Shown here piece after piece: positions 44,047 through 62,213 of a DNA stretch of 64,000 nt (within the stretch, counting starts at the first letter, position 1; the number at the start of each line of letters is the position of its first letter). The stretch is from an uncultured Acidobacteriia bacterium (GTDB lineage Bacteria > Acidobacteriota > Terriglobia > Bryobacterales > Bryobacteraceae): the NCBI GenBank assembly GCA_903828455.1, contig CAIKMJ010000006.1, forward strand, positions 1-64,000, read 5' to 3'. Under the pieces are notes generated by a model, which did not search any database, was not told the DNA's origin, and worked only from the letters and a program-made list of their open reading frames with translations. Made by a program: the position numbers and the translations under genes.

Positions 44047-44102
44047 ATCAGAAGTTAAGAATCAGAAGTCGCGTATCAGAAGTCGCGTATCAGAAGTAAT
44101 GA
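44047..44102. repeat. Four tandem 14-bp ATCAGAAGT repeats at the hupE 3' end
   Basis: Units start at 44047, 44061, 44075 and 44089, each ATCAGAAGT followed by five variable bases (CGCGT twice). A further ATCAGAAGT lies near 44012. The last unit supplies the TGA stop codon of the HupE-like gene on the minus strand. Confidence 0.7.
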
Positions 44103-45100: not shown

Positions 45101-45146
45101 GGTTGGAATTCGCAAGGCGGATAATCAGGCGGCCGCGGAGATTGGC

Positions 45147-46258: not shown

Positions 46259-47503
46259 TTATTTGGTCACGGTCACGATGGCATCGTCGGCCACGGTCTT
46301 TTCACCGTCGCTGACTGTGATCGTGTACTTGTACGTGTAGCCAACCTGGCAGGCTTTGGCGGGGATGTGGGCCGCGCCGAACTTGCCGCTGATTGCCGCA
46401 TACGGGCCGCTGGTGATGCCGCAGCCGTCGGAAGCAACCGGGTTATCCGGCTTCTCGTTGTTGGTGCTCTTATAAACCTGCACCGACGTCGAGGCCGTCT
46501 TGGCCATGGTGTGACCCCACGAATAGAGCACGTCCTGACCGGCGGCAACCTTCACGTTGGCCGCGTTGTTGGCATTGAGATAGCCGGAGAGACGCAACTG
46601 ACCCTTGGTGTAGGTCTCGCTCGTCTTCTTGCCAGCCACATCGATGAAGTTAAAGGTCCAGCTGCCGTCCATGTTCTGCTCGTAGTTCACGTAGCCGTGC
46701 TTGGCGCCGATGGCGTAGTCGAGCGAGTACTTGTTCGGACCGGGCCAGGTGAAGCCGACGATTTTGGCTCCCTGCAGCGGCATCAGCCAGTGGCGGAGAC
46801 CGGTGGTGAAGGGCTGGGGAACGATGGCGTCTTTTTCCACCTTCACGTTGCCGTGCTCGCCACCGTTGAGGTAGGGGAACGTCTTGGTGGAGTGGTAGTG
46901 ATAGTTGCCGTTCACGGTGTGGCCGTTGAGGTCGTCAAGGCCGGTGACCGCGGAGCCATCCGGTTCGGTGTAGCCGTAGATCGGGTAGCCGTCGAGACCG
47001 TAGGCAATGGGGTTTTCCTTGCCGATCGTGTCGATCAGGAAGGTCGGGGGCATGTGGTAGTGATAGTCGTCGCCACGGCCGCAGTGGGCGCCGAAGTCGT
47101 CGAGTTCGCCGGCGACGAAGGTGTCCGTTTTGCCGTCGTTCTTGATGACGTTGAAGATCGGAATACCGTTCACGGCCACGGCGATGGCGCCGCTATAGAG
47201 GGCGGAGCGAACGTTCACCGGATGTTCGGCCGGGATCGGATGTTTCGGAATTCTCCATGCGTTGTCGCCCGTGTACGGCTGCGGGATCGGCACCTGCTGT
47301 TGCCAGGCGGTGATACCGACCATCATCTTGTGGGTCGGCATGCCGTTGGCTTCGATGTAGAAATAATCGGCGTCCTCGTGCCAGCTGAAATAGGACGTGT
47401 GAGCCTTGCTCTTCTGAGGAGAGGCGACGATCAGCATAGCCAGCAACGAAGTTCCCGCCGCCGCGCGCAGCAGGGTCGCCCTGGTGAACAAGCGTTTTTT
47501 CAT
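46259..47503 (-). CDS. Exported YHYH domain protein
   Basis: A 414-residue secreted protein. A long signal peptide (LLRAAAGTSLLAMLIVASPQ) precedes the mature part. YHYH motifs occur twice, in GRGDDYHYHMPPTFL and NGNYHYHSTKTFPYL, with AYGLDGYPIYGYTEPDGSAV between them, exactly as in the YHYH family found in marine and soil bacteria. The C-terminal quarter (VGYTYKYTITVSDGEK and so on) looks like a beta-sandwich. The His/Tyr clusters could bind metal, but no reaction is known for the family. GAGGG lies 11 bases before the ATG. Confidence 0.85.
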   Translation of the reverse strand: MKKRLFTRATLLRAAAGTSLLAMLIVASPQKSKAHTSYFSWHEDADYFYIEANGMPTHKMMVGITAWQQQVPIPQPYTGDNAWRIPKHPIPAEHPVNVRSALYSGAIAVAVNGIPIFNVIKNDGKTDTFVAGELDDFGAHCGRGDDYHYHMPPTFLIDTIGKENPIAYGLDGYPIYGYTEPDGSAVTGLDDLNGHTVNGNYHYHSTKTFPYLNGGEHGNVKVEKDAIVPQPFTTGLRHWLMPLQGAKIVGFTWPGPNKYSLDYAIGAKHGYVNYEQNMDGSWTFNFIDVAGKKTSETYTKGQLRLSGYLNANNAANVKVAAGQDVLYSWGHTMAKTASTSVQVYKSTNNEKPDNPVASDGCGITSGPYAAISGKFGAAHIPAKACQVGYTYKYTITVSDGEKTVADDAIVTVTK

Positions 47504-47860: not shown

Positions 47861-49432
47861 TTACTTTGCCGCTTTGCCGGGCTTGACGGTGTACGAGTAG
47901 GCCAGTTCGCCCTGCTTGTGCTCAGGAGTTTCGTCCTTCGGCATCCAGGAGCGGATGTAATCGACCTTGGCGCCGGTGGGGCTGACGGTCACGCGGAGGT
48001 GGCCGGAGGCCGGAAGGTAGTCGCCGGTCTTATAGGCACTGCGCCAGCCGCCGGCGGTGTCCTCATAGAAGGGATTGCCGGGATTGGGAGTTTCCTGGTA
48101 GACGATGCCGTCCTTTTCCTGGCGCACGAAGATGTGATCGTGGCCCTGGAAAAAGATGGAAACGCCGTACTTCACCATCAGCTGGTGGATGGGCATCTCC
48201 CAGCCCGGGCGGCGCTTATCGAATTCCCATTCGCCCTGCATGTTGCGGCCGCCCCACTCGAACTGGTCGGCCATTTCGACGGCGCCGCGGTTGGTGCCGA
48301 GAACGTGGTGGGCGAACATGAACTTGTACTTGGCCTTGCTTTCCGAAAGCGTCTTCACGAGCCAGCGGTACTGTTCTTCGCCGTGGGTGATGTCCCACAT
48401 GTCGCGGGTCTGACGGTCGCCGCCGAGGTTGCCGCCGGCCTTCTTGCCATCGGCTGTAGCTTTGCCCTCGGCATTCTTCTTGCCGCCGCCCGGTTCCTTG
48501 CCGATGCCGCCGCCGGTGCCGGGCAGGACGGTATCGACGGGAATCTTCGAGTGCCAGTAGGGATCCATGGTGATGAAGAGCGCGTCGCCCCACGTCCAGG
48601 CGTAGAAGTCGCGCAGGTGGCCGATGTACTGAACCTGCTCGGTGTCGCCGGTGTAGAAGCCATCGGGCTCGGGCAGTTCGTAATAACGGTTGCGCGCGTT
48701 GCCAACCCAGACGGCGGCATTGTTCGGTGTGCCATCGAGCAGATAGCGGCCGCCCTGCTCGTGGCCGCCGGCGACGAGGAAGATCGGGGTGGAACTGCCG
48801 TCCATGCCGAGATACTTGCGCTGATTGATGTAGACCTGCGAGACCACCTGCGGGGTGACGGTCTTGTTGAGCTGGTCGACGCTGAAATCGTCACCGAGGG
48901 TGATGTAGAAGTCCGGCTTTTCCTTGCGGACTTCGGCCATGGTGGCGGCGTAGAGGCTGGCCTCGAACATGTTCTTGCGTTCGGGGTGGGAATCGGCCTG
49001 CACCGCGAAGGTGAAGGTGCTGCCCGGGGGGCGCTGCGTGTGGAAGCTGTATTCGGCTGCCGGTTTGAATGCGCCGGTGGCGGTTTCGCGATACTGCACG
49101 CGGTAGTAGTAAAGAGTGTTGGACTTGAGCTTATCGATGGTGACATCGAAAGGCGTGTGGCCCTTGGACTTTACCGGCGCCGTCTTGCCGTTGTACTTGC
49201 CCGGCGCGGTGCCGTATTCGACGTAAGCTTCCAGATCGTTCGGAGCGAGAACGCTGAGACCGATGGAGTGGTCCGTGGGACGGCCGAGCACCTGAGTCAT
49301 GCCGTCGACGGTGGTCTGCGAATCTACATCGGTGGCGTCCTGCTGGGCCACCGAATGCGCCGCCCATAAACACAAACACAGGACTGCGCCGCCTGCGATG
49401 CGCCATTTCAACTGTTTCGAAATCAGCTTCAT
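47861..49432 (-). CDS. Secreted metallophosphoesterase, PAP-type N-domain, paralogue 1 (GGHE variant)
   Basis: A 523-residue exported protein. Signal/anchor segment 10-30; purple-acid-phosphatase-type fibronectin-like domain at about 45-135 (QVLGRPTDHSIGLSV, VEYGTAPGKY, LYYYRVQYRE); then the metallophosphoesterase core with motif DSH near 147, GDDF near 180, GGHE at 222-225 in place of GNHE, AHHVLG near 360 and GHDHIF near 420. The true-PAP tyrosine ligand (GDxxY) is absent. A Gly/Lys-rich insert (about 290-330) is unique to this copy. AGGAG lies five bases before the ATG. It is divergent from the beta-propeller gene at 49692. Substrate unknown. Confidence 0.88.
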   Translation of the reverse strand: MKLISKQLKWRIAGGAVLCLCLWAAHSVAQQDATDVDSQTTVDGMTQVLGRPTDHSIGLSVLAPNDLEAYVEYGTAPGKYNGKTAPVKSKGHTPFDVTIDKLKSNTLYYYRVQYRETATGAFKPAAEYSFHTQRPPGSTFTFAVQADSHPERKNMFEASLYAATMAEVRKEKPDFYITLGDDFSVDQLNKTVTPQVVSQVYINQRKYLGMDGSSTPIFLVAGGHEQGGRYLLDGTPNNAAVWVGNARNRYYELPEPDGFYTGDTEQVQYIGHLRDFYAWTWGDALFITMDPYWHSKIPVDTVLPGTGGGIGKEPGGGKKNAEGKATADGKKAGGNLGGDRQTRDMWDITHGEEQYRWLVKTLSESKAKYKFMFAHHVLGTNRGAVEMADQFEWGGRNMQGEWEFDKRRPGWEMPIHQLMVKYGVSIFFQGHDHIFVRQEKDGIVYQETPNPGNPFYEDTAGGWRSAYKTGDYLPASGHLRVTVSPTGAKVDYIRSWMPKDETPEHKQGELAYSYTVKPGKAAK

Positions 49433-49691
49433 TACTTCTCCTGAATTAGTTCCCCTGCCGCGCGTTGCCTGAATTGCCGGATCCGGTCATCTCGACTCGC
49501 TTTTGCAGAGAGCCTGCACACCGCGTAAAACTGCGGGGGCACGGATCACCACTGTATTATGCCGGACTGCGGGATGCAACGCGCGACGGACCGTGATGCG
49601 GCGATCTAACCGCTTTCTAACATTGCTGTGCCAAACTGCGGTCGGCATCAAGTATGGTTCGGCCAACTTAGAGTGCCGGCGGGAGTCATCC

Positions 49692-50681
49692 ATGCGAACC
49701 AGGTTCACCGGTCGAGTTCTTGCGACAAGCTGTTGCGCTCTGGCAGTAGCGGTGGCGATGCCGGCGACGGCATACCCGCAGTCACGGCAACTGGTCGTAC
49801 TCAATAAAGAGGGCACGGTTTCATTCATCGATGTCGCGACCCAGAAAACGGTCGCAAAATCGAAGACCGGCGACGGGCCGCATGAGTTGGTGGTAACCGG
49901 CGACGGCAAGTACGCGGTGGTCTCGAATTTCGACGAGGGGCGAACGCTTTCGGTCATCGACACGGCAGCGCATAAAGAAGTGCACCGGGTGGATCTCTCG
50001 CCGCTGAGCCGCCCGCACGGCTTATTTGCCGCCGACGGCAAGGTTTACTTTACAGCGGAGGGCAGCGGGGCGATCGGCCGCTACGATCCGGCGACCAACC
50101 GCGTGGACTGGACGATGAAGAGCCGGCAGGAAGGCACGCACATGATCGTGGTGAGCCGCGACCGGAACCGTATTTTTACGGCGAATACCGAATCCGGCTC
50201 CGTCACGATTTTTCAGCGGCCCGGAAGTTCGGGCGAGGACTGGCATTTAACGAATGTTCGGGTGGGCAACGGGTCGGAGGGCTTCGATCTGTCCCCGGAC
50301 GAAAAACAATTGTGGGTGGCGAATGGAAACGACGGAACGGTTTCCATCGTCGACGTGGTAACGGCGAAAGTCATCGGAACCATTCATGTCGGAACTGAGC
50401 GATCCAACCGGCTGAAGTTCACGCCGGACGGGAAACGGGTGCTGGTTTCCGATCTGGGCAGCGGCGATCTGTTGATTCTCGATGTCGCCTCGCGCCAGTT
50501 GATTAAGAAAATTCGCGTGGGACACGGGCTGGCGGGACTGCTGATCGACGCCGACGGATCGCACGCCTACGCCGCCGCGACCAGCGATAACTTCGTTGCG
50601 GTGGTGGATCTGCAGCGACTGGAAGTAACCGGGCACATCCCGACAGGCCGGGGGCCGGACGGCATGGACTGGCTGCATTGA
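49692..50681 (+). CDS. Exported YVTN/YncE-type beta-propeller protein (1)
   Basis: A 329-residue secreted protein with a signal peptide (RVLATSCCALAVAVAMPATA). Six to seven propeller blades are visible, for example RQLVVLNKEGTVSFIDVATQ, VVTGDGKYAVVSNFDEGRTL, LWVANGNDGTVSIVDVVTAK and VLVSDLGSGDLLILDVASRQ; these are YVTN-type repeats. Such proteins are surface or periplasmic and often act as scaffolds or binding partners. GGGAG is seven bases before the ATG at 49692; the longer frame to 49503 lies in the promoter region. It lies head-to-head with metallophosphoesterase paralogue 1. Confidence 0.88.
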   Translation: MRTRFTGRVLATSCCALAVAVAMPATAYPQSRQLVVLNKEGTVSFIDVATQKTVAKSKTGDGPHELVVTGDGKYAVVSNFDEGRTLSVIDTAAHKEVHRVDLSPLSRPHGLFAADGKVYFTAEGSGAIGRYDPATNRVDWTMKSRQEGTHMIVVSRDRNRIFTANTESGSVTIFQRPGSSGEDWHLTNVRVGNGSEGFDLSPDEKQLWVANGNDGTVSIVDVVTAKVIGTIHVGTERSNRLKFTPDGKRVLVSDLGSGDLLILDVASRQLIKKIRVGHGLAGLLIDADGSHAYAAATSDNFVAVVDLQRLEVTGHIPTGRGPDGMDWLH

Positions 50682-50741
50682 CAGCTCTGACGCGCCTGGC
50701 GGATGCGGATGGAAAGCTATAGTTTTTAGAGAGGCGCATGG

Positions 50742-52103
50742 ATGAAGTTGAATGACGCGATGACCCCGTTTACCCGAAAAAGATTACTGATTGCCGCGGC
50801 CTGTCTGCTGCCGGCCGCCTGCCTGCTGCGATCGCAGGACACGCCGACGTTTTCGAGCGGAGTGCAGGTGGTGAACCTGGACGCGACGGTACGGGACAAG
50901 AGCGGCAAATTTATCGGCGACCTGACCAAAGAAGATTTCAAGCTGGAAGTGAAGGGCAAGGCGACGCCGATCACTTACTTCTCGCGCGCCGCGGACCGGC
51001 CGATGACGCTCGGGCTGCTGCTGGACACGAGCGGGAGCGTGGGCCGAATTCTGAATCAGGAAGTCACCGCCAGCCGCAATTTTTTTCACAGCGTGCTGCG
51101 CGAGGATCGCGATCAGGCGTTTGAGCTGCACTTCGACAGCGTTGCAGAACTGCTGCAGGACATGACGCCGTCGCTGGCGAAGCTGGATGCGGGACTCGAT
51201 AAGGCGACGGCGGCCCCCACGCGTGGCGGTGGTGGTGGCGGTGGTGGTGGAGGACGCGGCGCGGGCGGTGGTGGCGGAGGTGGTGGTAAGCGCGGCGGCG
51301 GAGGCGGTGGCCAGGGCGGCGGCGGCGGACAGGCCGGCGCGGGCGGCGGCGGGACCGTGCTTTACGATTCCCTGTATCTGGCGGCGAACGCCATGCGGGA
51401 TCTGCACCGTTACGTGGAGACCACGAAGAGAGATACAGGAACGAAAGCGCTGCTCATCCTTTCCGACGGTTTGGATCGCGGCAGCAAAGTAACGCTTAGC
51501 ACGGCAATCGAGACGGCACAGCGCGCCGATACACCGGTGTTTTCGATCTTCTACGAGGACGCACTGGTGGCCAGCGCGGCGAGCGCCAGCGCATCGAAGG
51601 GGATTAGCGACGATCGGGTCCTGATCGGATCCGGAAACGGCGGCGGCGGCGGAGAAAGTGGCGGCGGAGGCGGTCGCGGCGGCGGCGGTGGCGGCGGCGG
51701 TCGCGGTGGTGGTGGTGGCGCTGGAGGTGGTGGCGGGGGAGGTGGTGGCGGGGGAGGTGGTGGCGGAGGCCGCGGTGGTGGTGGCGGCGGTGGCGGTGGC
51801 GGTGGCGGATTTGGGGGAGTTGCCGGTCCCGTCCCCGCAGCAAGCAATGCCGGATACAGCGCGGCGGTGAATGGCCGGCAGGTTTTGCAGCGGATCGCCA
51901 AAGAGACCGGCGGGACATTCTTCGAGGTTTCCGCGAAGCATCCGCTGACCGAGATCTACGCGCAAATTGAAGATGAACTGCGCCAGCGTTATAGCATTGG
52001 ATTCAGTCCGGAAACAGGAGTGAAGGGCTTCCGGAAGATTCAGCTCACCGCCAAACCAAAAGGTCTGACGGTGACGGCTCGCGAAGGCTACTTCGCCGAG
52101 TAA
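50742..52103 (+). CDS. Acidobacterial VWFA-related protein with two glycine-rich inserts
   Basis: A 453-residue exported protein. Signal peptide (LLIAAACLLPAACLLRSQ), then an N-terminal beta domain (VQVVNLDATVRDKSGKFIGD, DLTKEDFKLEVKGK) and a von Willebrand A domain with the MIDAS motif DTSGS at 95-99. The build matches the acidobacterial VWFA-related family (TIGR03436-like), including the C-terminal GGTFFEVSAKHPLTEIYAQI and LRQRYSIGFSP. Two near-pure glycine stretches, residues about 161-204 and 296-365, interrupt the A domain; they are not part of the usual family. Start 50742; an in-frame ATG at 50760 is an alternative. It probably binds ligands in a metal-dependent way. Confidence 0.88.
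   Translation: MKLNDAMTPFTRKRLLIAAACLLPAACLLRSQDTPTFSSGVQVVNLDATVRDKSGKFIGDLTKEDFKLEVKGKATPITYFSRAADRPMTLGLLLDTSGSVGRILNQEVTASRNFFHSVLREDRDQAFELHFDSVAELLQDMTPSLAKLDAGLDKATAAPTRGGGGGGGGGGRGAGGGGGGGGKRGGGGGGQGGGGGQAGAGGGGTVLYDSLYLAANAMRDLHRYVETTKRDTGTKALLILSDGLDRGSKVTLSTAIETAQRADTPVFSIFYEDALVASAASASASKGISDDRVLIGSGNGGGGGESGGGGGRGGGGGGGGRGGGGGAGGGGGGGGGGGGGGGGRGGGGGGGGGGGGFGGVAGPVPAASNAGYSAAVNGRQVLQRIAKETGGTFFEVSAKHPLTEIYAQIEDELRQRYSIGFSPETGVKGFRKIQLTAKPKGLTVTAREGYFAE
51222..51360 (+). repeat. GGN codon tract 1 within the VWFA gene
   Basis: Imperfect GGT/GGC/GGA repeats encode about 44 residues, almost all Gly with a few Arg, Lys, Gln and Ala. Codon choice varies (GGTGGTGGCGG mixtures), so this is selected or slipped low-complexity DNA rather than a simple uniform microsatellite. 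Confidence 0.85.
51636..51835 (+). repeat. GGN codon tract 2 within the VWFA gene
   Basis: A longer run encoding about 65 residues, nearly all Gly with occasional Arg, Glu, Ser and Ala. Internal short duplications such as GGAGGTGGTGGCGGG appear more than once, pointing to slippage or local duplication. Confidence 0.85.
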
Positions 52104-52127
52104 GTAATTGCAGGGAGAAGAGACGTG

Positions 52128-52979
52128 ATGGTTACGAATTGGATCGTTAGTCGAGCTGGCCTGACGAGGAACTTTATGATCTGCGCCGTTCTGGCGGCTG
52201 CCGGAGTGCCGGCGCACGCGCAGTGGCTGGGTTATCTGCCGCCGGGAACTCCGCTGACGGCCGAGGGAAAGGCCGACATGACCGCGAAGGCGCCCCGCAC
52301 GCCGTGGGATACGCCCGACCTCACCGGCACATACCATATTGCGAGGACGGCCCGCGATATTGCGGCGCGCGCGGAGACGAAGGGTTTATCGCCGGTGGAG
52401 TCCTACACCGCCAATATCTTCCGCGACATTAAGCCGGAGGAAATTCCGGAAACGGAAGCAGGAAAGAAGGTTCGGCTGGCGCGCACCGGAAATGGCAAGA
52501 GAGCCGATCCTTCAGTGTTTTGTCTGCCGATGGGAATTCCGCTGAACAACACGTTCAACGAGGTGACGAAATTCGTCCAGGCGAAGAACATTCTGATGAT
52601 CCTGTTCGAAGTGGATGGGACCTACCGGCAGGTTTACCTCGACGGGCGCAAACTGCCGGAAGATCCGTCTCCGGCGTGGATGGGCTATTCGACGGGACAC
52701 TGGGAAGGCGACACGCTGGTGGTGGAAACGGCGGGCTTCAACGATAAGTCATGGCTCGACATGGCGGGGCACTCGCACAGCGAACAGTTGCACGTCACCG
52801 AACGCTACCATCGCCGCGATTTCGGACACCTCGATGTGGAAGTGACGCTGAACGATCCGGTGATGTACAGCAAGCCGTTCAAGATTCAGTTCACGCACAC
52901 GCTGCTGCCGGATTCGGACATCCTCGAAAGCTACTGCAACGAAAATGAAAAGGACCGGCAACATCTGGGCCTGAACTAA
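52128..52979 (+). CDS. Exported hypothetical protein (PWDTPDLTG family)
   Basis: A 283-residue secreted protein of an uncharacterised family that is strongly expanded in acidobacteria. Signal peptide (NFMICAVLAAAGVPAHA). Family landmarks I recognise: PWDTPDLTGTYHI, CLPMGIPLNNTF, ILFEVDGTYRQVYLDGRKLP, WMGYSTGHWEGDTLVVETAG, FNDKSWLDMAGHSHSEQLHV and TERYHRRDFGHL. The conserved GHWEGDTLV.T.GFND and GH.HSE segments suggest an enzyme-like or binding site, but no function is known to me. ATG 52128 follows a GTG and an AGGGAGAAGAG stretch. It lies 24 bases after the VWFA gene, so co-transcription is likely. Confidence 0.82.
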   Translation: MVTNWIVSRAGLTRNFMICAVLAAAGVPAHAQWLGYLPPGTPLTAEGKADMTAKAPRTPWDTPDLTGTYHIARTARDIAARAETKGLSPVESYTANIFRDIKPEEIPETEAGKKVRLARTGNGKRADPSVFCLPMGIPLNNTFNEVTKFVQAKNILMILFEVDGTYRQVYLDGRKLPEDPSPAWMGYSTGHWEGDTLVVETAGFNDKSWLDMAGHSHSEQLHVTERYHRRDFGHLDVEVTLNDPVMYSKPFKIQFTHTLLPDSDILESYCNENEKDRQHLGLN

Positions 52980-52988
52980 ACGAATTCA

Positions 52989-53034
52989 AATCCGGCCGTC
53001 CGCGCGCGCAAGAGTAAGCGTGGGCGGCCGGATT
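52989..53034 (+). terminator. Hairpin after the PWDTPDLTG-family gene
   Basis: AATCCGGCCGTCC (52989-53001) pairs with GGGCGGCCGGATT (53022-53034), 12 of 13 positions, with a 20-base loop; it is followed by CTCCTCCTTCG on the plus strand. A probable terminator separating this unit from metallophosphoesterase paralogue 2. Confidence 0.65.
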
Positions 53035-53257
53035 CTCCTCCTTCGCTGTTCCAGTCTTTCCTTCTCAGCTCTTAAGTTCTCCGCCTCACTTCCCTTCCCC
53101 CGACTAACGGCCGCAGGAACCAGCGAGTTCCCGCTGCTGCGTTGTGTTAGTATTTTCTTGCTTAACGATTTCCTCACAATTGTCGTCCGAAACCGCGTAA
53201 GCGCGGCCTTGCCAGGCCGGAAATCAATCAGTTTCCTCACGGAAGGGATCTATCAAG

Positions 53258-54748
53258 ATGAAGAAGTTGTCGAGCCAGGTGAAATGGCGGCTAGCGGGCG
53301 GCGGGGCAGTGTTTGTCTGCCTCTGCGCAGCTTTACTCACGGCGCAGCAGGCGCAGGAGAGTTCGGACGCTGCAACCACGGTGACGGGACTGACACAGGT
53401 TCTGGCGCAGCCGACCGATCACTCGATTGTGCTGAACGTGCTGGCGCCGAACGATCTGGAATCGTACGTGGAATTTGGCACGGCACCGGGCAAGTATACG
53501 GGCAAGACGGCGGTGGCAAAGTCGAAGTCGCACACGCCGTTTGAGGTGGTGCTCGACAAGCTGAAGGCGAATACTCATTACTACTACCGGCTGCAGGCGC
53601 GCGAAACGGGCAAGACCGCGTACACGGCCGGCGACGAGTACAATTTCCAGACGGCGCGGCCGGCCAATACGCCGTTCGTGTTCGACGTGCAGGCGGATTC
53701 GCATCCCGAGCGCGTGAAGAACATGTTCGACGCCGATCTCTACATGCGGACGATGAAGAGCGTGCAGAAAGACAAGCCCGACTTCTACATCACGCTGGGC
53801 GACGACTTCAGCATCGACCAGGGAATGGCGCAGGTTACGCCGGTTTCGGTGGCGCAGGTCTACATCAATCAGCGCAAGTATCTGGGGATGGGCGGTTCCG
53901 GGGTGCCGGTGTTTCTGATCAACGGCGGGCATGAGTCGGCGGCGGGGTATCTGCTCGATGGCACGCCGAACAATCCGGCGGTGTGGGCCGGTACGTCGCG
54001 GAATCGTTACTTCTCGCAGCCGGCGCCGAACAAGTTCTACTCGGGCGATGCGGAGCCGATTGAATATGTTGGGCTGCCGCGCGATTACTATGCGTGGACA
54101 TGGGGCGATGCGCTCTTCATCACACTCGATCCGTACTGGCATTCCAAGGTCATGTTCGGCACCGGCAACGGGCTGGGCAAGGACAAGGATTCCAAAAAGG
54201 TCAAAGACATGTGGGACATCACGCACGGCGAGGCGCAGTACAAGTGGCTGAAGAAGACGCTGTCGGAGAGCAAGGCAAAGTATAAGTTCATCTTTGCGCA
54301 TCATGTGCTCGGTACCGACCGCGGCGGCGTGGAAATGGCCGAACTGTACGAGTGGGGCGGCAAGACGCATGAGGGTGTGTGGGAGTTCGACAAGAAGCGG
54401 CCGGGCTGGGAGATGCCGATTCATCAGCTGATGGTGAAGTACGGCGTTTCGATCTTCTTCCAGGGGCACGATCACGTTTTCGTCCGCCAGGAAAAGGACG
54501 GCGTGGTGTATCAGGAGACGCCCAATCCGGCGAGTCCGTTCGAGACCGATCCGCAGAATGGCGGCTGGCAGGATGCGTATAAGTCGGGCAAGCTTCTGCC
54601 GCCTTCGGGGCATCTGCGTGTGAGTGTGACGCCGGCGGAGACGAAGGTGGACTACGTGAAGTCGTGGCTGCCGAAGGATGAGACACCCGAGCATAAGCAG
54701 GACCAGGTGGACTTCACCTACAGCGTGAAGGCGCGGCCGAATCAGTAA
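53258..54748 (+). CDS. Secreted metallophosphoesterase, PAP-type N-domain, paralogue 2 (GGHE variant)
   Basis: A 496-residue paralogue of the 47861 gene. Signal peptide about 10-30 (GGGAVFVCLCAALLTAQ). The PAP-type beta domain has QVLAQPTDHSIVLNV and HYYYRLQARE. Core motifs: ADSHPE, GDDFSID, then NGGHES in place of GNHE, AHHVLGTDRGG and FQGHDHVFVR. The GGHE substitution is shared with paralogues 1 and 4. The core sequence is close to paralogue 3, which starts 32 bases after the stop, so the two are a tandem pair probably on one transcript. GGAAGG precedes the ATG. Confidence 0.88.
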   Translation: MKKLSSQVKWRLAGGGAVFVCLCAALLTAQQAQESSDAATTVTGLTQVLAQPTDHSIVLNVLAPNDLESYVEFGTAPGKYTGKTAVAKSKSHTPFEVVLDKLKANTHYYYRLQARETGKTAYTAGDEYNFQTARPANTPFVFDVQADSHPERVKNMFDADLYMRTMKSVQKDKPDFYITLGDDFSIDQGMAQVTPVSVAQVYINQRKYLGMGGSGVPVFLINGGHESAAGYLLDGTPNNPAVWAGTSRNRYFSQPAPNKFYSGDAEPIEYVGLPRDYYAWTWGDALFITLDPYWHSKVMFGTGNGLGKDKDSKKVKDMWDITHGEAQYKWLKKTLSESKAKYKFIFAHHVLGTDRGGVEMAELYEWGGKTHEGVWEFDKKRPGWEMPIHQLMVKYGVSIFFQGHDHVFVRQEKDGVVYQETPNPASPFETDPQNGGWQDAYKSGKLLPPSGHLRVSVTPAETKVDYVKSWLPKDETPEHKQDQVDFTYSVKARPNQ

Positions 54749-54779
54749 GGAGCAGGAGATAGTTTTCCGAGGACGCAAG

Positions 54780-56276
54780 ATGAAGCAAATATCCAAACAG
54801 ACGAAGTGGCGGATCGCGGGCGGGACCGCGGTGGCGGCGTGCCTTTGTGGAGCGCTGCTGACAGCGCAGCAGGCACAGGAAAGCGCGGACGCGGCGACGA
54901 CGGTGACGGAACTGTCGCAGGTGCTGGGACGGCCGACGGATCACTCGATTACGGTGAATGTGCTGGCTCCGAACGACCTCGAATCGTATGTGGAGTACGG
55001 TACGGCAGCCGGGAAGTATTCGGGCAAGAGCGCCGTGGCGAAATCGAAGGCAAAGACTCCGGTTGAAGTCACGATGGATAAGCTGAAGCCGAACACGCAT
55101 TACTACTACCGGCTGCGCTATCGCGAGAACGGCAAGGGTGCCTACGCCACGGGAACGCAGTACGAGTTCCAGACGCAGCGGCCGCCGGGCAGCACGTTCG
55201 TTTTCGACGTGCAGTCCGATTCGCACCCCGAGCGACTGGTCCGTATGTTCGACGCCGAACTTTATGCGCGGACGATGGCGAGCGTGCGGAAAGACAAGCC
55301 CGATTTCTATATCACGATGGGCGACGATTTCAGCGTGGACGAAATGAAGGAGCCGCTGACGCCGGTCAATGTGGCGCAGATCTACATCAACCAGCGCAAG
55401 TATCTGGGGATGGACGGCAGTTCGACGCCGATCTTCCTCGTGAACGGCAACCACGAACAGGCGGCGAAGTATCTGCTGGACGGCACACCGAACAATGTTG
55501 CGGTATGGGCAGGCAATGCGCGCAACCGTTACTATCCGAATCCGGCTCCGGACAGCTTCTATACGGGCGACGCGGAGCCGCCGGTGCAGTTCATCGGCCA
55601 GTTGCGCGATTACTATGCGTTCACGTGGGGCGATGCGCTGTTCATCGGCATCGATCCGTACTGGCATTCCGATGACGTGGTGGATAACCGGCTGGGCGAA
55701 GGTCCGAACGCCGGGCAGAAGAAGGAAGGGCCGCGGGTTCGCGACCAGTGGAAGATCACGCACGGCGAAGCGCAGTACCGCTGGCTGCAGAAGACGCTTT
55801 CCGAAAGCAAGGCGAAGTACAAGTTCATGTTCGCGCACCACGTGCTCGGCACCGGGCGCGGCGGCACGGACATGGCCGAACTGTTCGAATGGGGCGGAAA
55901 GAATCAGCAGGGCGTTTGGGAGTTTGACAAGAAGCGCCCGGGCTGGGAGCTGCCCATTCACCAGATGATGGTGAAGTACGGGGTTTCGATCTTCTTCCAG
56001 GGCCACGATCATCTGTTCGTGCGGCAGCAGAAGGATGGCGTGGTGTATCAGGAGACGCCGACGCCGGCCGATCCGAATTACGCCAGTCCGAATGACAACC
56101 AATACAAGGGCGGCGATCATTTCCCGGCCGCCGGGCACATCCGCGTGACGATTTCTCCGCAGAATGCAAAAGTGGAGTACGTGCGGTCGTGGATGCCGAA
56201 GGATGAGAAGAACGGGCATAAGCAGGACGAAGTGGCCTTCGCTTATACCGTGGCGCCGGGCAAGGCGAACCAGTAA
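54780..56276 (+). CDS. Secreted metallophosphoesterase, PAP-type N-domain, paralogue 3 (canonical GNHE)
   Basis: A 498-residue paralogue. The N-terminus (TKWRIAGGTAVAACLCGALL) is a signal peptide; the beta domain carries QVLGRPTDHSITVNV and HYYYRLRYRE. Core motifs are SDSHPE near 148, GDDFSVD near 181, NGNHEQ at 222-227 (canonical Asn present), AHHVLGTGRGG and FQGHDHLFVR. Of the DSH-type copies it alone keeps the full metal set, so it is the likeliest active enzyme of the paralogue 1-3 group. GAGG lies seven bases before the ATG. Confidence 0.9.
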   Translation: MKQISKQTKWRIAGGTAVAACLCGALLTAQQAQESADAATTVTELSQVLGRPTDHSITVNVLAPNDLESYVEYGTAAGKYSGKSAVAKSKAKTPVEVTMDKLKPNTHYYYRLRYRENGKGAYATGTQYEFQTQRPPGSTFVFDVQSDSHPERLVRMFDAELYARTMASVRKDKPDFYITMGDDFSVDEMKEPLTPVNVAQIYINQRKYLGMDGSSTPIFLVNGNHEQAAKYLLDGTPNNVAVWAGNARNRYYPNPAPDSFYTGDAEPPVQFIGQLRDYYAFTWGDALFIGIDPYWHSDDVVDNRLGEGPNAGQKKEGPRVRDQWKITHGEAQYRWLQKTLSESKAKYKFMFAHHVLGTGRGGTDMAELFEWGGKNQQGVWEFDKKRPGWELPIHQMMVKYGVSIFFQGHDHLFVRQQKDGVVYQETPTPADPNYASPNDNQYKGGDHFPAAGHIRVTISPQNAKVEYVRSWMPKDEKNGHKQDEVAFAYTVAPGKANQ

Positions 56277-56299
56277 GTATCAGTCAGAAACGGGACTGC

Positions 56300-56345
56300 G
56301 CGAGGCTGAATCGACCTGCGACGTTGCGGGCCGGTTCAGCCTCGC
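56300..56345. terminator. Bidirectional hairpin between convergent genes
   Basis: GCGAGGCTGAA (56300-56310) and its perfect complement (56335-56345) form an 11-bp stem with a 24-base loop, between the paralogue 3 stop (56276) and the amidohydrolase stop (56360). T tracts are weak on both sides. Confidence 0.6.
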
Positions 56346-56359
56346 TGCATTTCCGGCGG

Positions 56360-57322
56360 TCAGAGCTTCAGCAGGTTTTCGGCATTGCGGTGGGTGAGCT
56401 TCGCCATATCATCCGGGCTGATGGAGAGGCCGTCGAGAAATTTTCGCCCCTGATCGTTGGAACTGAACGGGTAGTCGACGGAGAAGAGGATGCGGTCGAT
56501 GCCCACCACCTGCAGGGCGCACAGAAACGGCGGGTTGGTGAAGTAACCGCTGGTGGTGATCCAGAAGTTATCGCAGAAGTATTCCGAGATGCGGCGCTGC
56601 AGACTGGGGTTTCCCCGGCCCATGGCCATTTCGGCGCGGGCGATGGAGAACGGCAGGTTCTCGCCCATGTGGCCGATGATCATTTTCAGGCGGGGGAAGC
56701 GATCGAACAGGCCGGTGACAATCATACGCAGACTGTGCATGCCGGTCTCCACGTGCCAGCCCCAGCCGGAGGTGGCGAGGAAGAAGCCGAGCGCGCCGGG
56801 CAGTCCGCTGTAATAGGCCTCCATGACGGCGGGCGGCGGCGGGGCGGGGTGAAGGTAGACCGGAACGTCGAGCGCCTGAGCGGCTTCGAAGACCGGGGAG
56901 AAGCGGGGATCGTCGAGAAACCGGCCGTTAAAGGTTCCGCTGAGCATCAGGCCTTTGGCGCCCAGTTGGCGGACAGCGCGTTCCAGTTCCGCGGCGGCCT
57001 TTTCGGGTTCGTGCAGCGCCACGGTGGCGAAGGCGGCAAAGCGGCCGGGATGGGCCTGGACGGCGGCGGCCATGCGGTCATTGGCGTCGCGAACCAGCGC
57101 ATTGGCAGCGTCGGAATCGAGGCGGTCCACCGTGTTGGCGGAAAGAGAGAGCACCTGGAGATCGATCCCTGCCGCGTCCATATCGGCAATGCGCCCATCG
57201 CCCACGTCGAGAAGCTTCGCGCCGAGACTGCGCAGGTAATCGGAAGCCGGGGTGCCGGGCATCCGCGCGGCGGCCGCTATATCGGGCGTGGTGATGTGTT
57301 CTTCGAGTGCAATGATGCGCAT
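56360..57322 (-). CDS. Amidohydrolase family protein (Amidohydro_2, ACMSD-like)
   Basis: A 320-residue TIM-barrel hydrolase/decarboxylase. Metal-site motifs are ALEEHITTP near the start, PVYLHPAPPPP near 170, IIGHMGENLPF near 225 and LFSVDYPF near 280, as in the PF04909 family (ACMSD, gamma-resorcylate decarboxylase and relatives). No signal peptide, so cytoplasmic. Members act on aromatic carboxylates; the substrate here is unknown. ATG 57322 is chosen over an in-frame TTG at 57337. It is the only minus-strand gene inside the metallophosphoesterase array. Confidence 0.88.
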   Translation of the reverse strand: MRIIALEEHITTPDIAAAARMPGTPASDYLRSLGAKLLDVGDGRIADMDAAGIDLQVLSLSANTVDRLDSDAANALVRDANDRMAAAVQAHPGRFAAFATVALHEPEKAAAELERAVRQLGAKGLMLSGTFNGRFLDDPRFSPVFEAAQALDVPVYLHPAPPPPAVMEAYYSGLPGALGFFLATSGWGWHVETGMHSLRMIVTGLFDRFPRLKMIIGHMGENLPFSIARAEMAMGRGNPSLQRRISEYFCDNFWITTSGYFTNPPFLCALQVVGIDRILFSVDYPFSSNDQGRKFLDGLSISPDDMAKLTHRNAENLLKL

Positions 57323-57440
57323 TCGCACATGATACAAAACACTGACCTGAAACGGGATGCGCCACGTTTTGTCGACGAAACTTTACACGGCCGAAGCGCC
57401 TCCCGTAACCCGATTTATGATACATTCTGGCGAGATACCT

Positions 57441-58871
57441 ATGACCAGGACCACACGCTGTACCGCCGCAGGCGCCGCGCTGCTTGCAGCCGCATTGGCA
57501 TTTGCACAGACCGGCCTCGGCACGCATACGCGGGCCACGAACGATCCGGTGTTTATCGCGCAGGAGATGCTCGGCCGGCCGACGGATACGACGGTGACGA
57601 TCAATGCGTCGTCGTTTAAGAATCTGGAAGTCTATTACGAATACGGCACGAAATCGGGTGAATACACCGGCAAGACCGCGATAGCGAAAGCGACCGGCGG
57701 CGAACCGCTCAACGTTCTGGTCGACAAGCTGAAACCGAACACACAATATTTTTACCGGATGCGGTATCGCGAAGCCGCCGCCGCGACGTTCAGCACGCGC
57801 GACGAGCACACCTTCCATACAGCGCGCCCTGCCGGGAGCACGTTTACTTTTGTGGCCCAGTTCGATCCGCATCTGGACGATAACACCGACGATGCGACTT
57901 ACAAACTAAGTTTGCAGAACATGGTGCAGGACAAGCCGGATTTCATCATCGACGACGGCGACAACTTCTTCGTCGACAAACTTAACCCGCTGACCAGAGA
58001 GAATGTAGAGAAACGAATTCAGCTGCAGCGTTCTTACTACGACATTCTGACGCACTCGACTGCGATGTTTCTCGCGCTGGGCGGGCATGAAGGCGAGACC
58101 AACCGCCGCCTGAACGGAACCGCGGAAAACCTGGCCGTGTGGGACACGGTGCTGCGCAAAAAGTACATTCCGAATCCCGACCCCAACGGCTTCTACACCG
58201 GCAGCACGAAGGATTATCCGTTTGTCGGCGTGCGTGAAGCCAACTATGCCTGGACGTGGGGCGACGCGCTCTTTATCGTGCTGGATCCTTACTGGAACGC
58301 ACCCCAGGCTCCGGAGCAGGCCGGCGACTGGTCGCTGACGCTGGGCAAGGAACAATACGACTGGCTGAAGAAGACGCTGGAGACGAGCAACGCGAAATTC
58401 AAGTTCGTGTTTTCGCACCATCTCGTCGGTGGACGCCAGATGGAAGGCGGCGCACGCGGCGGCATTGAAGTCGCGAAGTATCTGGAAAACGGCGGTTACA
58501 ATCTTGACGATACGTGGGGGTTCGACAAAGCTCGTCCGGGCTGGGGCAAGCCGATTCACCAGTTACTGGTGGATAACAAGGCGACCATTTACTTCCACGG
58601 TCACGACCACACTTATGCGAAGCAGGATCTGGACGGACTTGTGTACCAGGCTGGTCCCCAGCCGAGCGCAAGCAAGACAGGCCTCGGCGACCGCGCCAAA
58701 ATTTATAACTACACGCACGGGACCGTGCTGGGTTACACCGGCTATCTGCGCGTCACGGTTTCGCCCGCTGATGTGAAGGTGGACTATGTGACGACATGGC
58801 TGCCGTCACTCGAAAATGCCACGCAGAAGAACCGCATGGTTGCGGATACTTACACAATCAAGGCCCGCTAA
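57441..58871 (+). CDS. Secreted metallophosphoesterase, PAP-type N-domain, paralogue 4 (GGHE variant)
   Basis: A 476-residue paralogue with the signal peptide CTAAGAALLAAALAFAQ. The beta domain has EMLGRPTDTTVTINA, VYYEYGTKSGEYTGK and QYFYRMRYRE. Core motifs: QFDPHLD (DPH form), DDGDNFFVD, LGGHEG in place of GNHE, SHHLVGG and FHGHDHTYAK. It belongs by sequence to the DPH subgroup (paralogues 4-6), yet shares the GGHE change with 1 and 2, so that change has arisen or spread in both subgroups. ATG 57441 fits the signal peptide. It heads a four-gene plus-strand run. Confidence 0.87.
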   Translation: MTRTTRCTAAGAALLAAALAFAQTGLGTHTRATNDPVFIAQEMLGRPTDTTVTINASSFKNLEVYYEYGTKSGEYTGKTAIAKATGGEPLNVLVDKLKPNTQYFYRMRYREAAAATFSTRDEHTFHTARPAGSTFTFVAQFDPHLDDNTDDATYKLSLQNMVQDKPDFIIDDGDNFFVDKLNPLTRENVEKRIQLQRSYYDILTHSTAMFLALGGHEGETNRRLNGTAENLAVWDTVLRKKYIPNPDPNGFYTGSTKDYPFVGVREANYAWTWGDALFIVLDPYWNAPQAPEQAGDWSLTLGKEQYDWLKKTLETSNAKFKFVFSHHLVGGRQMEGGARGGIEVAKYLENGGYNLDDTWGFDKARPGWGKPIHQLLVDNKATIYFHGHDHTYAKQDLDGLVYQAGPQPSASKTGLGDRAKIYNYTHGTVLGYTGYLRVTVSPADVKVDYVTTWLPSLENATQKNRMVADTYTIKAR

Positions 58872-58893
58872 TACAATCTGCCGAGGAAAGCAC

Positions 58894-60525
58894 ATGACAA
58901 GTCGACAAACAGTTGGAGTCGTGACCGGAAGTCTGCTGGGCATTACCGTAATCATGTGGGCGCAGTCAATCGATCCGAAAAATAAGGCGCAGTTTCCTTA
59001 CAAAGAGGCAGCGGACCCGAAGTTGGTCATCGAACCGTATCACGGTGAAGGCAACATTACGCCGGGTGCCGGGAAGGGCGGCGATGAAGGGAAAAAGGGC
59101 GGCGACGCCGGCAAGAAGGGCGGCGGCGGGCAAGGTGGTGGCGAAGCCAGTCGCATGGGCTCGCGCGATCCGCTGTTCGTAGCTCAGGAAATGTTGGGGC
59201 GGCCAACCGATTCTGCCATCACGGTCAATGTGTCGGCGCGCAAAGATCTGGAAGTTTACTACGAATACGGAACACAATCGGGAAGCTATACGGCCAAAAC
59301 AACGGCGGCAACGCACCCGGGGGGCGAACCGTTCAACGTGCTCGTCGATAAGTTGAAGGCGAATACGGAATACTTTTACCGCATGCGCTACCGTGAGCCC
59401 GGAGCGGCGGAATTTGCTTCACGTCCCGAACATTCCTTCCACACCGCGCGACCCGCGGGCAGTACGTTCACCTTTGTTGCTCAGTTCGATCCGCATATGG
59501 GCGGAGACAGCAACACGGATGCCTATAAGCTGACGCTGAAGAAGATGCTGGCGGATCACCCGGACTTTATGATTGATCTCGGCGATAACTTCCAGTCCGA
59601 CAGAATGCGGCCGCCGACGAAACCCGGCGTAGAAGCACGGGTTCAGTTACTCCGCTCTTACTATGACCTGATCAACCATTCCGTCCCGTTGTATCTGGTG
59701 ATGGGCAATCACGAAGGCGAATGGGGCAGGAATCTGGATGGTACGGCGGAAAATGTGGCGATTTACGATACGCTGGCGCGCAAACGGTACATTCCGAATC
59801 CGGAAGCGAACGGCTTTTACAGCGGCGGTGGCAAGCCCGAGCCGCTGGTCGGCTTGCGGCAGGCTTACTACGCATTCCAGTGGGGCGACGCGCTCTTCGT
59901 AGCGCTCGATCCTTACTGGTACCGCCCGCAGGGTGCCGAACAGGCCGGCGACTGGACCACCACGCTGGGCAAGGAACAGTACGAGTGGCTGAAGAAGACG
60001 CTGGAGTCGAGTCACGCAACTTATAAGTTCATCTTCTCGCACAATCTCATTGGCGGCCTCGACATGCGGGGCCAGATGCGTGGCGGAATCGAAACGGTTA
60101 AGTATACCGAGATGGGCGGCTACAATTACGACGGCACGTGGGGCTGGGACAAAGCGCGGCCGGGTTGGGCGATGCCGATTCATCCGATGCTGGTGGCCAA
60201 TAATGCGAGCATCTGGTTCCACGGCCATGACCACCTGTATGCCAAGCAGGACCTCGACGGCATTGTCTATCAGGAGGGTCCGATGCCCGCGCGGGAAGGG
60301 CTCTTCGATGTGGCACCGACGCAGAAATACTACAATTATCTGCACGGTACTGTTCTCGGCGGCAGCGGTTACATTCGCGTGCGGGTATCTCCCGGTGATG
60401 TGAAGGTCGATTACGTCCAGACTTATCTGCCGAGCGAGGAAGATGCTAAGCACAAAGATGGCATGATCGCCGATACTTACACGATTAAAGCCCGGAAGTC
60501 GAATCCCGCGGCGATGGCACATTAG
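58894..60525 (+). CDS. Metallophosphoesterase, PAP-type N-domain, paralogue 5 with Gly/Lys linker
   Basis: A 543-residue paralogue. The N-terminus has one hydrophobic segment (VVTGSLLGITVIMWAQS) that could be a signal anchor, then a conserved SIDPKNKAQFPYKEAADPKL stretch, then a Gly/Lys/Asp-rich linker (about residues 50-80). The PAP-type domain and core follow: EMLGRPTDSAITVNV, QFDPHMG, LGDNFQSD, MGNHEGEWG (canonical), FSHNLIGG, HGHDHLYAK. GAGG lies seven bases before ATG 58894. It lies 22 bases after paralogue 4. Confidence 0.88.
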   Translation: MTSRQTVGVVTGSLLGITVIMWAQSIDPKNKAQFPYKEAADPKLVIEPYHGEGNITPGAGKGGDEGKKGGDAGKKGGGGQGGGEASRMGSRDPLFVAQEMLGRPTDSAITVNVSARKDLEVYYEYGTQSGSYTAKTTAATHPGGEPFNVLVDKLKANTEYFYRMRYREPGAAEFASRPEHSFHTARPAGSTFTFVAQFDPHMGGDSNTDAYKLTLKKMLADHPDFMIDLGDNFQSDRMRPPTKPGVEARVQLLRSYYDLINHSVPLYLVMGNHEGEWGRNLDGTAENVAIYDTLARKRYIPNPEANGFYSGGGKPEPLVGLRQAYYAFQWGDALFVALDPYWYRPQGAEQAGDWTTTLGKEQYEWLKKTLESSHATYKFIFSHNLIGGLDMRGQMRGGIETVKYTEMGGYNYDGTWGWDKARPGWAMPIHPMLVANNASIWFHGHDHLYAKQDLDGIVYQEGPMPAREGLFDVAPTQKYYNYLHGTVLGGSGYIRVRVSPGDVKVDYVQTYLPSEEDAKHKDGMIADTYTIKARKSNPAAMAH

Positions 60526-60563
60526 TACTTCCCGGAACGACAGTAGAAAGGAAATTATCAGGT

Positions 60564-62213
60564 ATGACAAATGGACAGAAGCTGGGAATCGCAGCCGGCG
60601 GCGTGCTCTGTGTCGCAGCATATTTAGGCGCGCAGGCAATCGATCCGAAAAACACATCGCAGTTCGCTTACAAAGAAGCTGCCGACCCGAAGCTGGTGAT
60701 TGAGTCCTACCATCCGGTGGGCAATCTCAACGTGGGCGCTGGCAAGAAGGGCGAGGCTGCAGGCAAAAAGGAAAAAGGCGCGGACGGAGGAAATAATGGC
60801 GACGGCGCCGGCTTCCCTTACGAAGGCAACGATCCCAAGACGCTGGGCGCGATCGATCCCTTGTTCTTTGCGCAGGAGATTCTGGGACGCCCGACCGGCG
60901 ACTCAATGACCATCAATCTGGCGGCGCACAAGAATCTGGAAGTTTATTGCGAATACGGCACCAAGGCGGGAAGTTACACGGCCAGGACCACTCCCGCTAC
61001 ACACCCTGGCGGCGAGCCGTTCAATGTTTTGATCGAAAAACTGAAGCCGAACACGGAATATTTTTACCGTGTGCGCTACAAGGAACCCGGCGCGAAGGAA
61101 TTTTCCGTGCGCCCCGAACATTCCTTCCACACGGCACGCGCCGCAGGCAGCACATTTACGTTCGTGGCTCAGTTCGACCCGCATCTGGCGGCAGGTAACG
61201 ATCTGGATGCTTACAAGCTGACGCTGAAGAAGATGCTGGCCGATAAGCCGGACATGATGTTCGATCTGGGCGATAACTTCCAGTCCGACAGAATGCGTCC
61301 GCCGACGAAGACCGGCGTCGAAGCGCGCGTGCAGTTACTTCGCTCTTACTACGATCTGATCAACCATTCGGTGCCGCTGTATATGGTGATGGGTAACCAC
61401 GAAGGGGAGTGGGGCCGGAATCTGAACGGCACGCCGGAAAACGTGGCGATCTATGACACGCTGGCCCGCAAGCGCTACATCCCGAATCCGGAAGCCAACG
61501 GTTTTTACACTGGCGGCGGCAAGCCGGAGCCGCTGGTGGGACTGCGGCAGGCTTACTACGCTTTCGAGTGGGGCGACGCGCTGTTCGTGGCGCTCGATCC
61601 GTACTGGTATCAGCCGCAGGGCGCCGAGGCGAAGGGCGACTGGCAAACAACGCTGGGCAAGGAACAATACGACTGGCTGAAGAAGACTCTGGAATCGAGC
61701 CACGCGACTTATAAGTTCATCTTCTCGCACAACCTGATCGGCGGCCTGGATATGAAGGGTTCCATGCGGGGCGGCATCGAAACGGTGAAGTACACCGAAA
61801 TGGGCGGTTACAACTACGACGGTACGTGGGGCTGGGACAAGGCTCGTCCGGGCTGGGCCACGCCGCTGCATCCGTTGATGGTGGCCAACAACGCCACGAT
61901 CTGGTTCCATGGCCACGATCATCTTTATGCGAAGCAGGATCTGGACGGCATGGTTTATCAGGAAGGCCCCATGCCGGCCCGCGAAGGCAAGTTCGATGCC
62001 TCGCCGACGGCGAAGACTTACAACTACCTGCACGGCACGGTCCTGGGCGGCAGCGGATACATTCGCGTCCGCGTTTCGCCGGGCGATGTGAAGGTCGATT
62101 ACGTCCAGACGTATCTTCCCCGCGAGGAAGATGCAACGCACAAAGACGGCATGATCGCCGACACTTACACGATTAAGGCGCGAAAGACCAATCCGGCAGT
62201 GGCTGCGCGATAA
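60564..62213 (+). CDS. Metallophosphoesterase, PAP-type N-domain, paralogue 6 with Gly/Lys linker
   Basis: A 549-residue paralogue very close to paralogue 5. Hydrophobic N-terminal segment (LGIAAGGVLCVAAYLGAQA), then AIDPKNTSQFAYKEAADPKL, a Lys/Gly/Glu-rich linker, EILGRPTGDSMTINL, QFDPHLA, LGDNFQSD, MGNHEGEWG, FSHNLIGG and HGHDHLYAK. Whole segments after residue 200 are identical to paralogue 5, so this is a recent tandem duplication. A single Cys in VYCEYGTKAG replaces Tyr of paralogue 5. It lies 38 bases after paralogue 5 and 33 before the next propeller gene. Confidence 0.88.
   Translation: MTNGQKLGIAAGGVLCVAAYLGAQAIDPKNTSQFAYKEAADPKLVIESYHPVGNLNVGAGKKGEAAGKKEKGADGGNNGDGAGFPYEGNDPKTLGAIDPLFFAQEILGRPTGDSMTINLAAHKNLEVYCEYGTKAGSYTARTTPATHPGGEPFNVLIEKLKPNTEYFYRVRYKEPGAKEFSVRPEHSFHTARAAGSTFTFVAQFDPHLAAGNDLDAYKLTLKKMLADKPDMMFDLGDNFQSDRMRPPTKTGVEARVQLLRSYYDLINHSVPLYMVMGNHEGEWGRNLNGTPENVAIYDTLARKRYIPNPEANGFYTGGGKPEPLVGLRQAYYAFEWGDALFVALDPYWYQPQGAEAKGDWQTTLGKEQYDWLKKTLESSHATYKFIFSHNLIGGLDMKGSMRGGIETVKYTEMGGYNYDGTWGWDKARPGWATPLHPLMVANNATIWFHGHDHLYAKQDLDGMVYQEGPMPAREGKFDASPTAKTYNYLHGTVLGGSGYIRVRVSPGDVKVDYVQTYLPREEDATHKDGMIADTYTIKARKTNPAVAAR

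Follow-up and report, generated by a model that had tools for sequence, protein, structure and literature searches.

Two sister families of probably exported metallophosphoesterases, frequently adjacent or fused across phyla, are multiplied in an uncultured Acidobacteriia bacterium

Purple acid phosphatases (PAPs) and PhoD share a tyrosine metal ligand, and the divalent-metal site of the PAPs is made up of two histidines, an aspartate and an asparagine (excerpts of PMC4223295). The genes described here lie in a stretch of 64,000 nucleotides (‘the window’) from contig CAIKMJ010000006.1 of an uncultured Acidobacteriia bacterium, and encode six metallophosphoesterases (MPEs), three of a type we call A and three of a type we call B (paralogues 1–6, numbered in order of position as in an earlier note on this DNA; Table 1). 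The sequences show two sister families, in most of the sampled loci adjacent or fused and accompanied by recurrent partners, that have both multiplied in this genome, to 26 genes. The fold and the superfamily are already known; what appears to be new is the A/B pairing, the fusions and a repeated change of metal ligand—the frequency of the pairing across phyla being the main point.

In a tree of 126 rows (LG+G4, short search, motif-III column masked; the duplicates L103, L105, L107 and L118 and rows shorter than 320 amino acids (aa) omitted, and 50 of the 137 rows from other named genomes used), the 55 rows of A and the 71 of B form separate clades, each with a Shimodaira–Hasegawa-like approximate likelihood-ratio (SH-aLRT) support of 100. 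The earlier note had described a single exported enzyme family with a DSH and a DPH subgroup. The family stands; its subgroups are better described as an old pair of sister families, which in many phyla are next to each other or fused. The motif strings of the window (DSH...GDDF...FQGHDH in paralogues 1–3, DPH...GDNF...FHGHDH in 4–6) do follow the two clades, and the labels sort the copies of this genome, but they fail elsewhere, many B-type proteins reading DSHLD.

Pairing was counted in 79 named loci, a sample taken from the best 80 matches to a query of type A. Among the groups given in their titles are Acidobacteria, Planctomycetes, Verrucomicrobia, Lentisphaerae, Chloroflexi, Armatimonadetes, Proteobacteria and Actinobacteria. 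Both types are present in 68 of them (among the best matches listed); here the nearest A and B are fused in 6 and on opposite strands in 2, while same-strand neighbours lie within 1 kb of each other in 50 and within 4 kb in 10, such that 66/79 loci have the two fused or on the same strand within 4 kb. Eleven loci are without a pair, several of these being at contig ends. The simple codon-usage gene caller used for the loci missed MPE genes in L116, L146 and L179, and the pairing was therefore recounted on six-frame open reading frames (ORFs), as given here. Many of the locus titles read as lake-metagenome isolate names; pairs are also carried by the isolates Inhella proteolytica and Sapientia aquatica.

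A second sample, of 396 genomes drawn from the phylum regardless of pairing (E <= 1e-50; at most four candidates scored per genome), gave nine positives including the genome itself. All eight others have A and B adjacent, or fused in the case of L206, with an atypical A partner in L203; since L202, L204, L205 and L208 lie on contigs whose lengths equal those of L139, L144, L129 and L146, the sample adds just four places to the first. Fused A–B ORFs are found in L112, L115, L128, L161, L173 and L206, and two giant ORFs (in L145 and L165) likewise contain both types; fusions occur in both orders. Across 48 loci with one pair each, the distance matrices of A and B correlate with r 0.746 (maximum of 2000 permutations, 0.166), which shows joint inheritance, not interaction. 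The pairing is not obligate: L130 has an A gene with no B nearby, its genome carrying A and B on another contig (L137).

The pairs keep recurrent company. Clustering of neighbours over 105 loci (Pfam on representatives; at least two pairs of loci, L071/L107 and L072/L118, are one place) gave raw, uncontrolled counts of 29 loci for an unannotated family, n0, 24 for an OmpR-type regulator, 21 for a histidine kinase, 19 for YHYH, 18 for a sulfatase, 12 for an arylsulfotransferase, 10 for PEBP and 9 for Lcl_C; a second YHYH cluster occurs in eight loci, its tested member being PEBP plus YHYH. Domain fusions join several of these families. YHYH, PEBP, Lcl_C, FGE-sulfatase and arylsulfotransferase are all found fused to A or B: a single ORF of 3537 aa (L165:5442-16055) holds A, B, FGE-sulfatase and ASST; another giant ORF of about 3,540 aa (L145:4206-14846) holds fused A and B; a protein of 1829 aa in L200 runs TIG, A, fn3, PEBP, YHYH; and Lcl_C is fused with B in L188 and L195. 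On a plasmid of Ca. Chlorohelix allophototropha (NZ_CP128401, L201), regulator, kinase, n0, YbhB, A and B stand in series. A search of phage records returned no match.

A published prediction makes YHYH a zinc-binding hydrolase (PMC7824862); a structure model of it was discarded (predicted local distance difference test, pLDDT, 42). The n0 family, 36 genes in 29 loci beside MPE pairs (L113:5936-7255 and L109:12114-13448 among them; L201:9284-10870 is also a member), is marked by a motif resembling FCPERHGTYFGGFYMKD that recurs in it. For one member Pfam returned PKD and a sub-threshold LTXXQ and nothing else, two members gave nothing in NCBIfam, and one protein query found no relative in the genome studied here. 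The open-access literature searched, on YHYH (also with MPE, sulfatase or HupE), ASST with MPE, acidobacterial PAP expansion, MPE pseudoenzymes, Solibacter paralogues and PAP/MPE heterodimers, contained nothing on this MPE system.

The genome itself (4.40 Mb in 80 contigs, 98.6% complete, 0.85% contaminated) holds 12 A and 14 B genes on 12 contigs, as found with a profile of the six window MPEs (28 rows, of which the N-terminal pieces L027 and L028 were dropped). The dense expansion of one family proposed in the earlier note is thus right but incomplete, the array accounting for 6 of 26 copies; the 20 further copies are, along with the altered motif III discussed below, one of two points absent from that note. 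Its concern that scattered genes might have been brought together by misassembly is not borne out, these being distinct genes spread over the 12 contigs of a near-complete and little-contaminated genome. Of its own 26 copies, 21 fall in the tree into one A and one B subclade, shared with three genomes unusually rich in MPEs: G769 (Acidobacteriia MAG VK_bin-3395), with 11 MPE rows, and G770 (2.2 Mb; labelled Gammaproteobacteria) and G771 (1.9 Mb; labelled Proteobacteria), with 16 and 15 rows that we read as 14 and 13 genes. The A subclade (17 rows; support 95) consists of 9 own, 4 G769, 2 G770 and 2 G771 sequences, the B subclade (29 rows; support 98) of 12, 5, 7 and 5, respectively. A large part of the expansion would be common to the four genomes and older than their separation, or than the transfer between them, whilst some duplications look recent (paralogues 5 and 6, for example, are 79% identical). 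Separately, the MPEs of the MAGs G770 and G771 (L181–L196, L199) interleave with acidobacterial ones in the tree, suggesting either large-scale transfer or wrong record labels.

Among the 26 named genomes reached through the loci, the 23 other than G769, G770 and G771 hold 2–6 MPE rows each. In a set of 60 relatives searched at E <= 1e-30, strong matches are found in 5 of 18 congeners (G003, G005, G009, G014 and G017; 2 to about 5 genes each), with none in the other 13, and in 0/18 genomes of the family's other genera. A wider search of the class found strong matches to the MPE region in at least one further member of the family, G405, and in G066 and G361; the counts it gave were set aside, being dominated by the C-terminal domain TIGR03437, with two candidates scored per genome. 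The four longest copies of the genome, on contigs C2 and C12, cluster with long copies retained in congeners.

All six window genes are open and intact (longer frames are listed for paralogue 4, from 57357, and paralogue 5, from 58816), and paralogues 2–6 align along their whole length with paralogue 1 at 39–68% identity. The Pfam model PF00149 exceeds its cut-off (21.5 bits) in five, paralogue 4 scoring 20.1; PF16656 exceeds its own (30) in paralogue 6 alone, at 31.0, the remaining five lying at 24.4–29.9; and PF09423 passes in two. Most of the earlier note’s description therefore holds: six paralogous MPE genes where it placed them, a PAP-like N-terminal domain, and a signal or anchor segment, which we see as a hydrophobic N-terminus by eye and as a helix at residues 4–39 in one structure model, making export probable. 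It had also observed that the tyrosine ligand of GDxxY is missing throughout, and had concluded that these are not classical PAPs; in our alignments GDNFY of TRAP is matched by GDDFS, and the tyrosine is replaced in all six proteins by Ser, Phe or Gln. More widely, Ser predominates at this position in A, and B has Met, Phe, Gln or some other residue there. Motif I reads DxH and aligns with that of Mre11, the usual arrangement of MPEs outside the PAPs. In the MPE superfamily the DxH histidine takes the place of the PAP tyrosine.

The full ligand pattern D-H-D-N-H-H-H-H (counting the motif-III His) is complete in 3 of the 6 window proteins, 19 of the 26 own genes, all 16 congener or order rows and 128 of the 137 rows that other named genomes contribute, two of the nine incomplete rows there being alignment gaps. 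In the genome itself it is the motif-III Asn that is lost, in seven genes (to Gly in six and Ser in one), among them paralogues 1, 2 and 4; paralogues 3, 5 and 6 read GNHE. Because the PAP divalent site uses an Asn, such a change would leave it one ligand short, with a possible effect on catalysis. The loss is not peculiar to this genome: Asn-less relatives are present in G769, G770 and G771, and the orthologue of paralogue 2 in G769 (L102, 84% identical) also reads GGHE. At least four changes of the Asn state are required on the tree, and three Asn-bearing rows are nested in an Asn-less A group, so that reversals or extra losses are possible. The Asn-less copies show no sign of decay and look constrained: the ratio of the proportions of non-synonymous and synonymous differences (pN/pS) is 0.13–0.28 in Asn-less pairs (n=6) against 0.07–0.24 in Asn-bearing pairs (n=6), these being raw values for 12 pairs that share sequences, two of them within-genome, with pS near saturation.

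A more drastic change is seen in seven B-type rows (L131, L150, L153, L156, L158, L159 and L167), in which three ligands are replaced: the motif-II Asp by Asn, the Asn by Val or Thr, and the last His by Asn. The A gene beside each has complete ligands in six cases, the seventh A being cut short by the gene call. Such a B partner is a candidate pseudoenzyme subunit. The ligand-poor rows come mostly from Verrucomicrobia/Opitutae records, and by motif there are two more, L152 and L154.

What might the pairs do? We tentatively favour the view that the three A and three B genes are copies of an exported, dinuclear-metal phosphoesterase module of PAP/PhoD fold, amplified here, in which A and B work together. 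The two would act jointly, whether as a heteromer or in consecutive steps, and could cleave phosphoesters in organic (possibly also sulfated) matter outside the cell; the copies may differ in substrate, and those without the Asn may hold the second metal differently, or be non-catalytic or specialised partners. In its favour count the ligand pattern kept in most rows, the confident fold model with PhoD and phytase as nearest folds, the pairing in both samples, the A–B and domain fusions, the correlated distances, the ligand-poor B genes beside A genes, and the apparent constraint on Asn-less copies. The dedicated extracellular phosphoester system of the earlier note survives as an expansion of probably exported enzymes, any function more specific than ‘phosphoesterase-like’ being conjectural. 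It is quite possible, however, that A and B are independent exported phosphatases or phosphodiesterases with different substrates (a diesterase and a monoesterase, for instance), multiplied by ordinary duplication for phosphorus scavenging, and a number of observations weigh against joint action. In a sister family (f3), 12 of 18 genomes have one strong match each, and the four loci inspected are all solo B (L077, L078, L080 and L081); on a complete Phycisphaerales chromosome (G772; L106, L119) we found two A genes but no B; and 9 of the 12 own contigs carry one type only in the stretches seen (C2, C12, C19, C25, C30, C41, C50, C69 and C70). The nearness of the modelled fold to PhoD and phytase, both phosphate-releasing enzymes, agrees with independent phosphatases too. 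The correlation of A and B distances is what would be expected of neighbours inherited together, the A and B profiles wrongly assign to A a few long copies of B (L067, L073 and L076), and the choice of loci by an A-type query, the uncontrolled neighbour counts and the near-saturated pN/pS values bear on the same side. Nor does regulation help: sites upstream of 20 own genes match a Pho box at 8–10 of 14 positions, with 10 reached by 3/20 against 10–11 by 12/300 random stretches, which is slightly above random and includes no strong site, so the scan was given no weight in favour of control by phosphate; and the OmpR-type regulator beside the pair of L142 resembles RpaB, MtrA and PhoB whilst falling below the cut-offs of the best 25 of 99 models. 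The want of a clear Pho-box or PhoB signal also tells against independent phosphatases serving phosphorus supply, as do the repeated fusion of A with B in both orders and the finding that a B gene with three ligands lost still adjoins an A gene.

A bolder extension of the joint-action reading, which we consider unlikely as a whole, would make A and B a heteromeric exported phosphoesterase across many phyla, one subunit of which has repeatedly become a pseudoenzyme or changed its metal site, and would place the pair, alongside YHYH, PEBP and sulfotransferase modules, within a single undescribed extracellular phospho-/sulfo-ester pathway, of which this genome would hold a combinatorial set. It is improbable that the proteins are mainly non-catalytic, the MPE fold serving for binding or structure, as in adhesion or mineral binding. 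Plasmodium GAP50 is a PAP-fold anchor, and GAP50 (3tgh) does appear among the matches to our model; seven of the 26 own members and the seven B rows are retained despite missing metal ligands, and TIG, fn3 and Lcl_C occur as fusions; but selection for binding alone would not explain why every ligand is kept in the 19 own genes and 128 other rows given above. That the window proteins are PhoD or true bacterial PAPs is more improbable still and largely contradicted by their sequences: against the similarity of fold and the passing of PF09423 stand the absent tyrosine, the DxH histidine of motif I, and scores for the PhoD equivalog NF058638 that do not exceed 20.8 bits where the cut-off is 1000 (paralogue 2 being unlisted). 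Scarcely credible, finally, is an artefact of assembly or binning; the genome is indeed in 80 contigs, but the compared pairs are only 39–79% identical, the genes are dispersed over 12 contigs with little contamination, and individual paralogues have near relatives in G769, G770 and G771.

Were A and B indeed a widespread pair of exported phosphoesterases with recurrent partners, the little-understood YHYH, Lcl_C and bacterial YbhB/PEBP proteins would gain a common biochemical context, and the pairs would offer a system in which to study the repeated loss of catalytic metal ligands in paired enzymes. The commitment of 26 genes to what is apparently one extracellular chemistry may also bear on the turnover of organic phosphorus.

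Table 1. Metallophosphoesterase genes of the window and genes nearby
Feature	Position	Strand	Remarks
A-type MPE, paralogue 1	47861-49432	-	523 aa; motif III GGHE, Asn ligand lost
A-type MPE, paralogue 2	53258-54748	+	496 aa; GGHE, Asn ligand lost
A-type MPE, paralogue 3	54780-56276	+	498 aa; all ligands; structure modelled
B-type MPE, paralogue 4	57441-58871	+	476 aa; GGHE, Asn ligand lost
B-type MPE, paralogue 5	58894-60525	+	543 aa; all ligands
B-type MPE, paralogue 6	60564-62213	+	549 aa; all ligands
YHYH protein (PF14240)	46259-47437	-	same strand as paralogue 1, downstream; recurrent MPE neighbour
Lcl_C protein (PF07603)	45147-46142	-	next downstream after YHYH; recurrent MPE neighbour
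HupE/UreJ_2 membrane protein (PF13795)	44090-45115	-	next downstream after Lcl_C
Small protein, no Pfam match	52125-52979	+	relatives near MPEs in L059, L065 and L068

On the plus strand of the window two A genes are followed by a single amidohydrolase gene and then by the three B genes. On the minus strand paralogue 1, YHYH, Lcl_C and HupE run in series, and the array should accordingly be extended leftwards to 44090. These companions also appear as fusions elsewhere: YHYH with an A-type MPE in G769, and Lcl_C with a B-type MPE in G770 and G771. In the congener G009 a single gene (L071:7608-9437) matches by BLAST first the HupE and then the YHYH of the window, where the two are separate, and has 11 bases in common with the start of an A-type MPE gene. 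Relatives of the small protein are also present in G770, at 31–35% identity. The earlier note had set the array among beta-propeller, VWFA and cytochrome genes: the VWA protein (TIGR03436) and the propeller are confirmed, and two CxxCH motifs can be made out in the last gene, but propeller and VWA genes are not recurrent partners across phyla, the propeller gene recurring near MPEs in 4 of 13 loci of the genome itself (the window, L066, L067 and L068). The VWA protein (50742-52103) contains very long glycine-rich stretches. The gene at 63629-64000, on the minus strand, encodes the C-terminal part of a multihaem cytochrome-like protein, its CxxCH motifs found by eye, and runs off the window.

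How, then, do these proteins compare with described systems? The earlier note had allowed for close homologues with a known single role, such as alkaline phosphatase D; among the solved structures and NCBIfam models there is no characterised close homologue. A structure model of paralogue 3 (pLDDT 91.8; predicted template-modelling score 0.91) is nearest in fold to PhoD, wheat purple acid phytase, lupin PPD1 and TRAP, then to GAP50, Rv0805 and GpdQ, all at 11–16% identity, whilst profile searches of the PDB return TRAP-type and wheat PAPs and, with a six-sequence profile, Mre11. With Solibacter there is a domain in common: TIGR03437 (Soli_cterm) is present in the single long copy tested (L067:8315-10648), there as a separate C-terminal module; a word search of PMC3174227, on Solibacter duplications, found none of the terms metallophosphoesterase, phosphoesterase, sulfatase or TIGR03437. 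PhoD of Bacillus subtilis (PDB 2yeq) heads the Foldseek matches to the model (E 3.2e-21, TM 0.58/0.55), yet the two are 15% identical, the window MPEs are without the tyrosine ligand, and their motifs retain His and Asn at the point where Asp and Asn bind calcium in PhoD, an enzyme with one Fe(III) and two Ca(II) ions (excerpts of PMC4223295). To the PAPs and phytases (wheat 6git/6gja, human TRAP 2bq8) the likeness lies in the fold, in weak profile matches and in the near-threshold scores of PF16656, the differences in the residue at the GDxxY tyrosine and in the DxH of motif I. With Mre11, Rv0805 and GpdQ the window MPEs share the pattern DxH ... GD ... GNH ... H ... GHxH (its GNH in paralogues 3, 5 and 6), Mre11 aligning over motifs I–III and the other two being matches of fold; from all three they are set apart by their PAP-like N-terminal domain, by the pairing of A with B, and by the partners to which they are fused.

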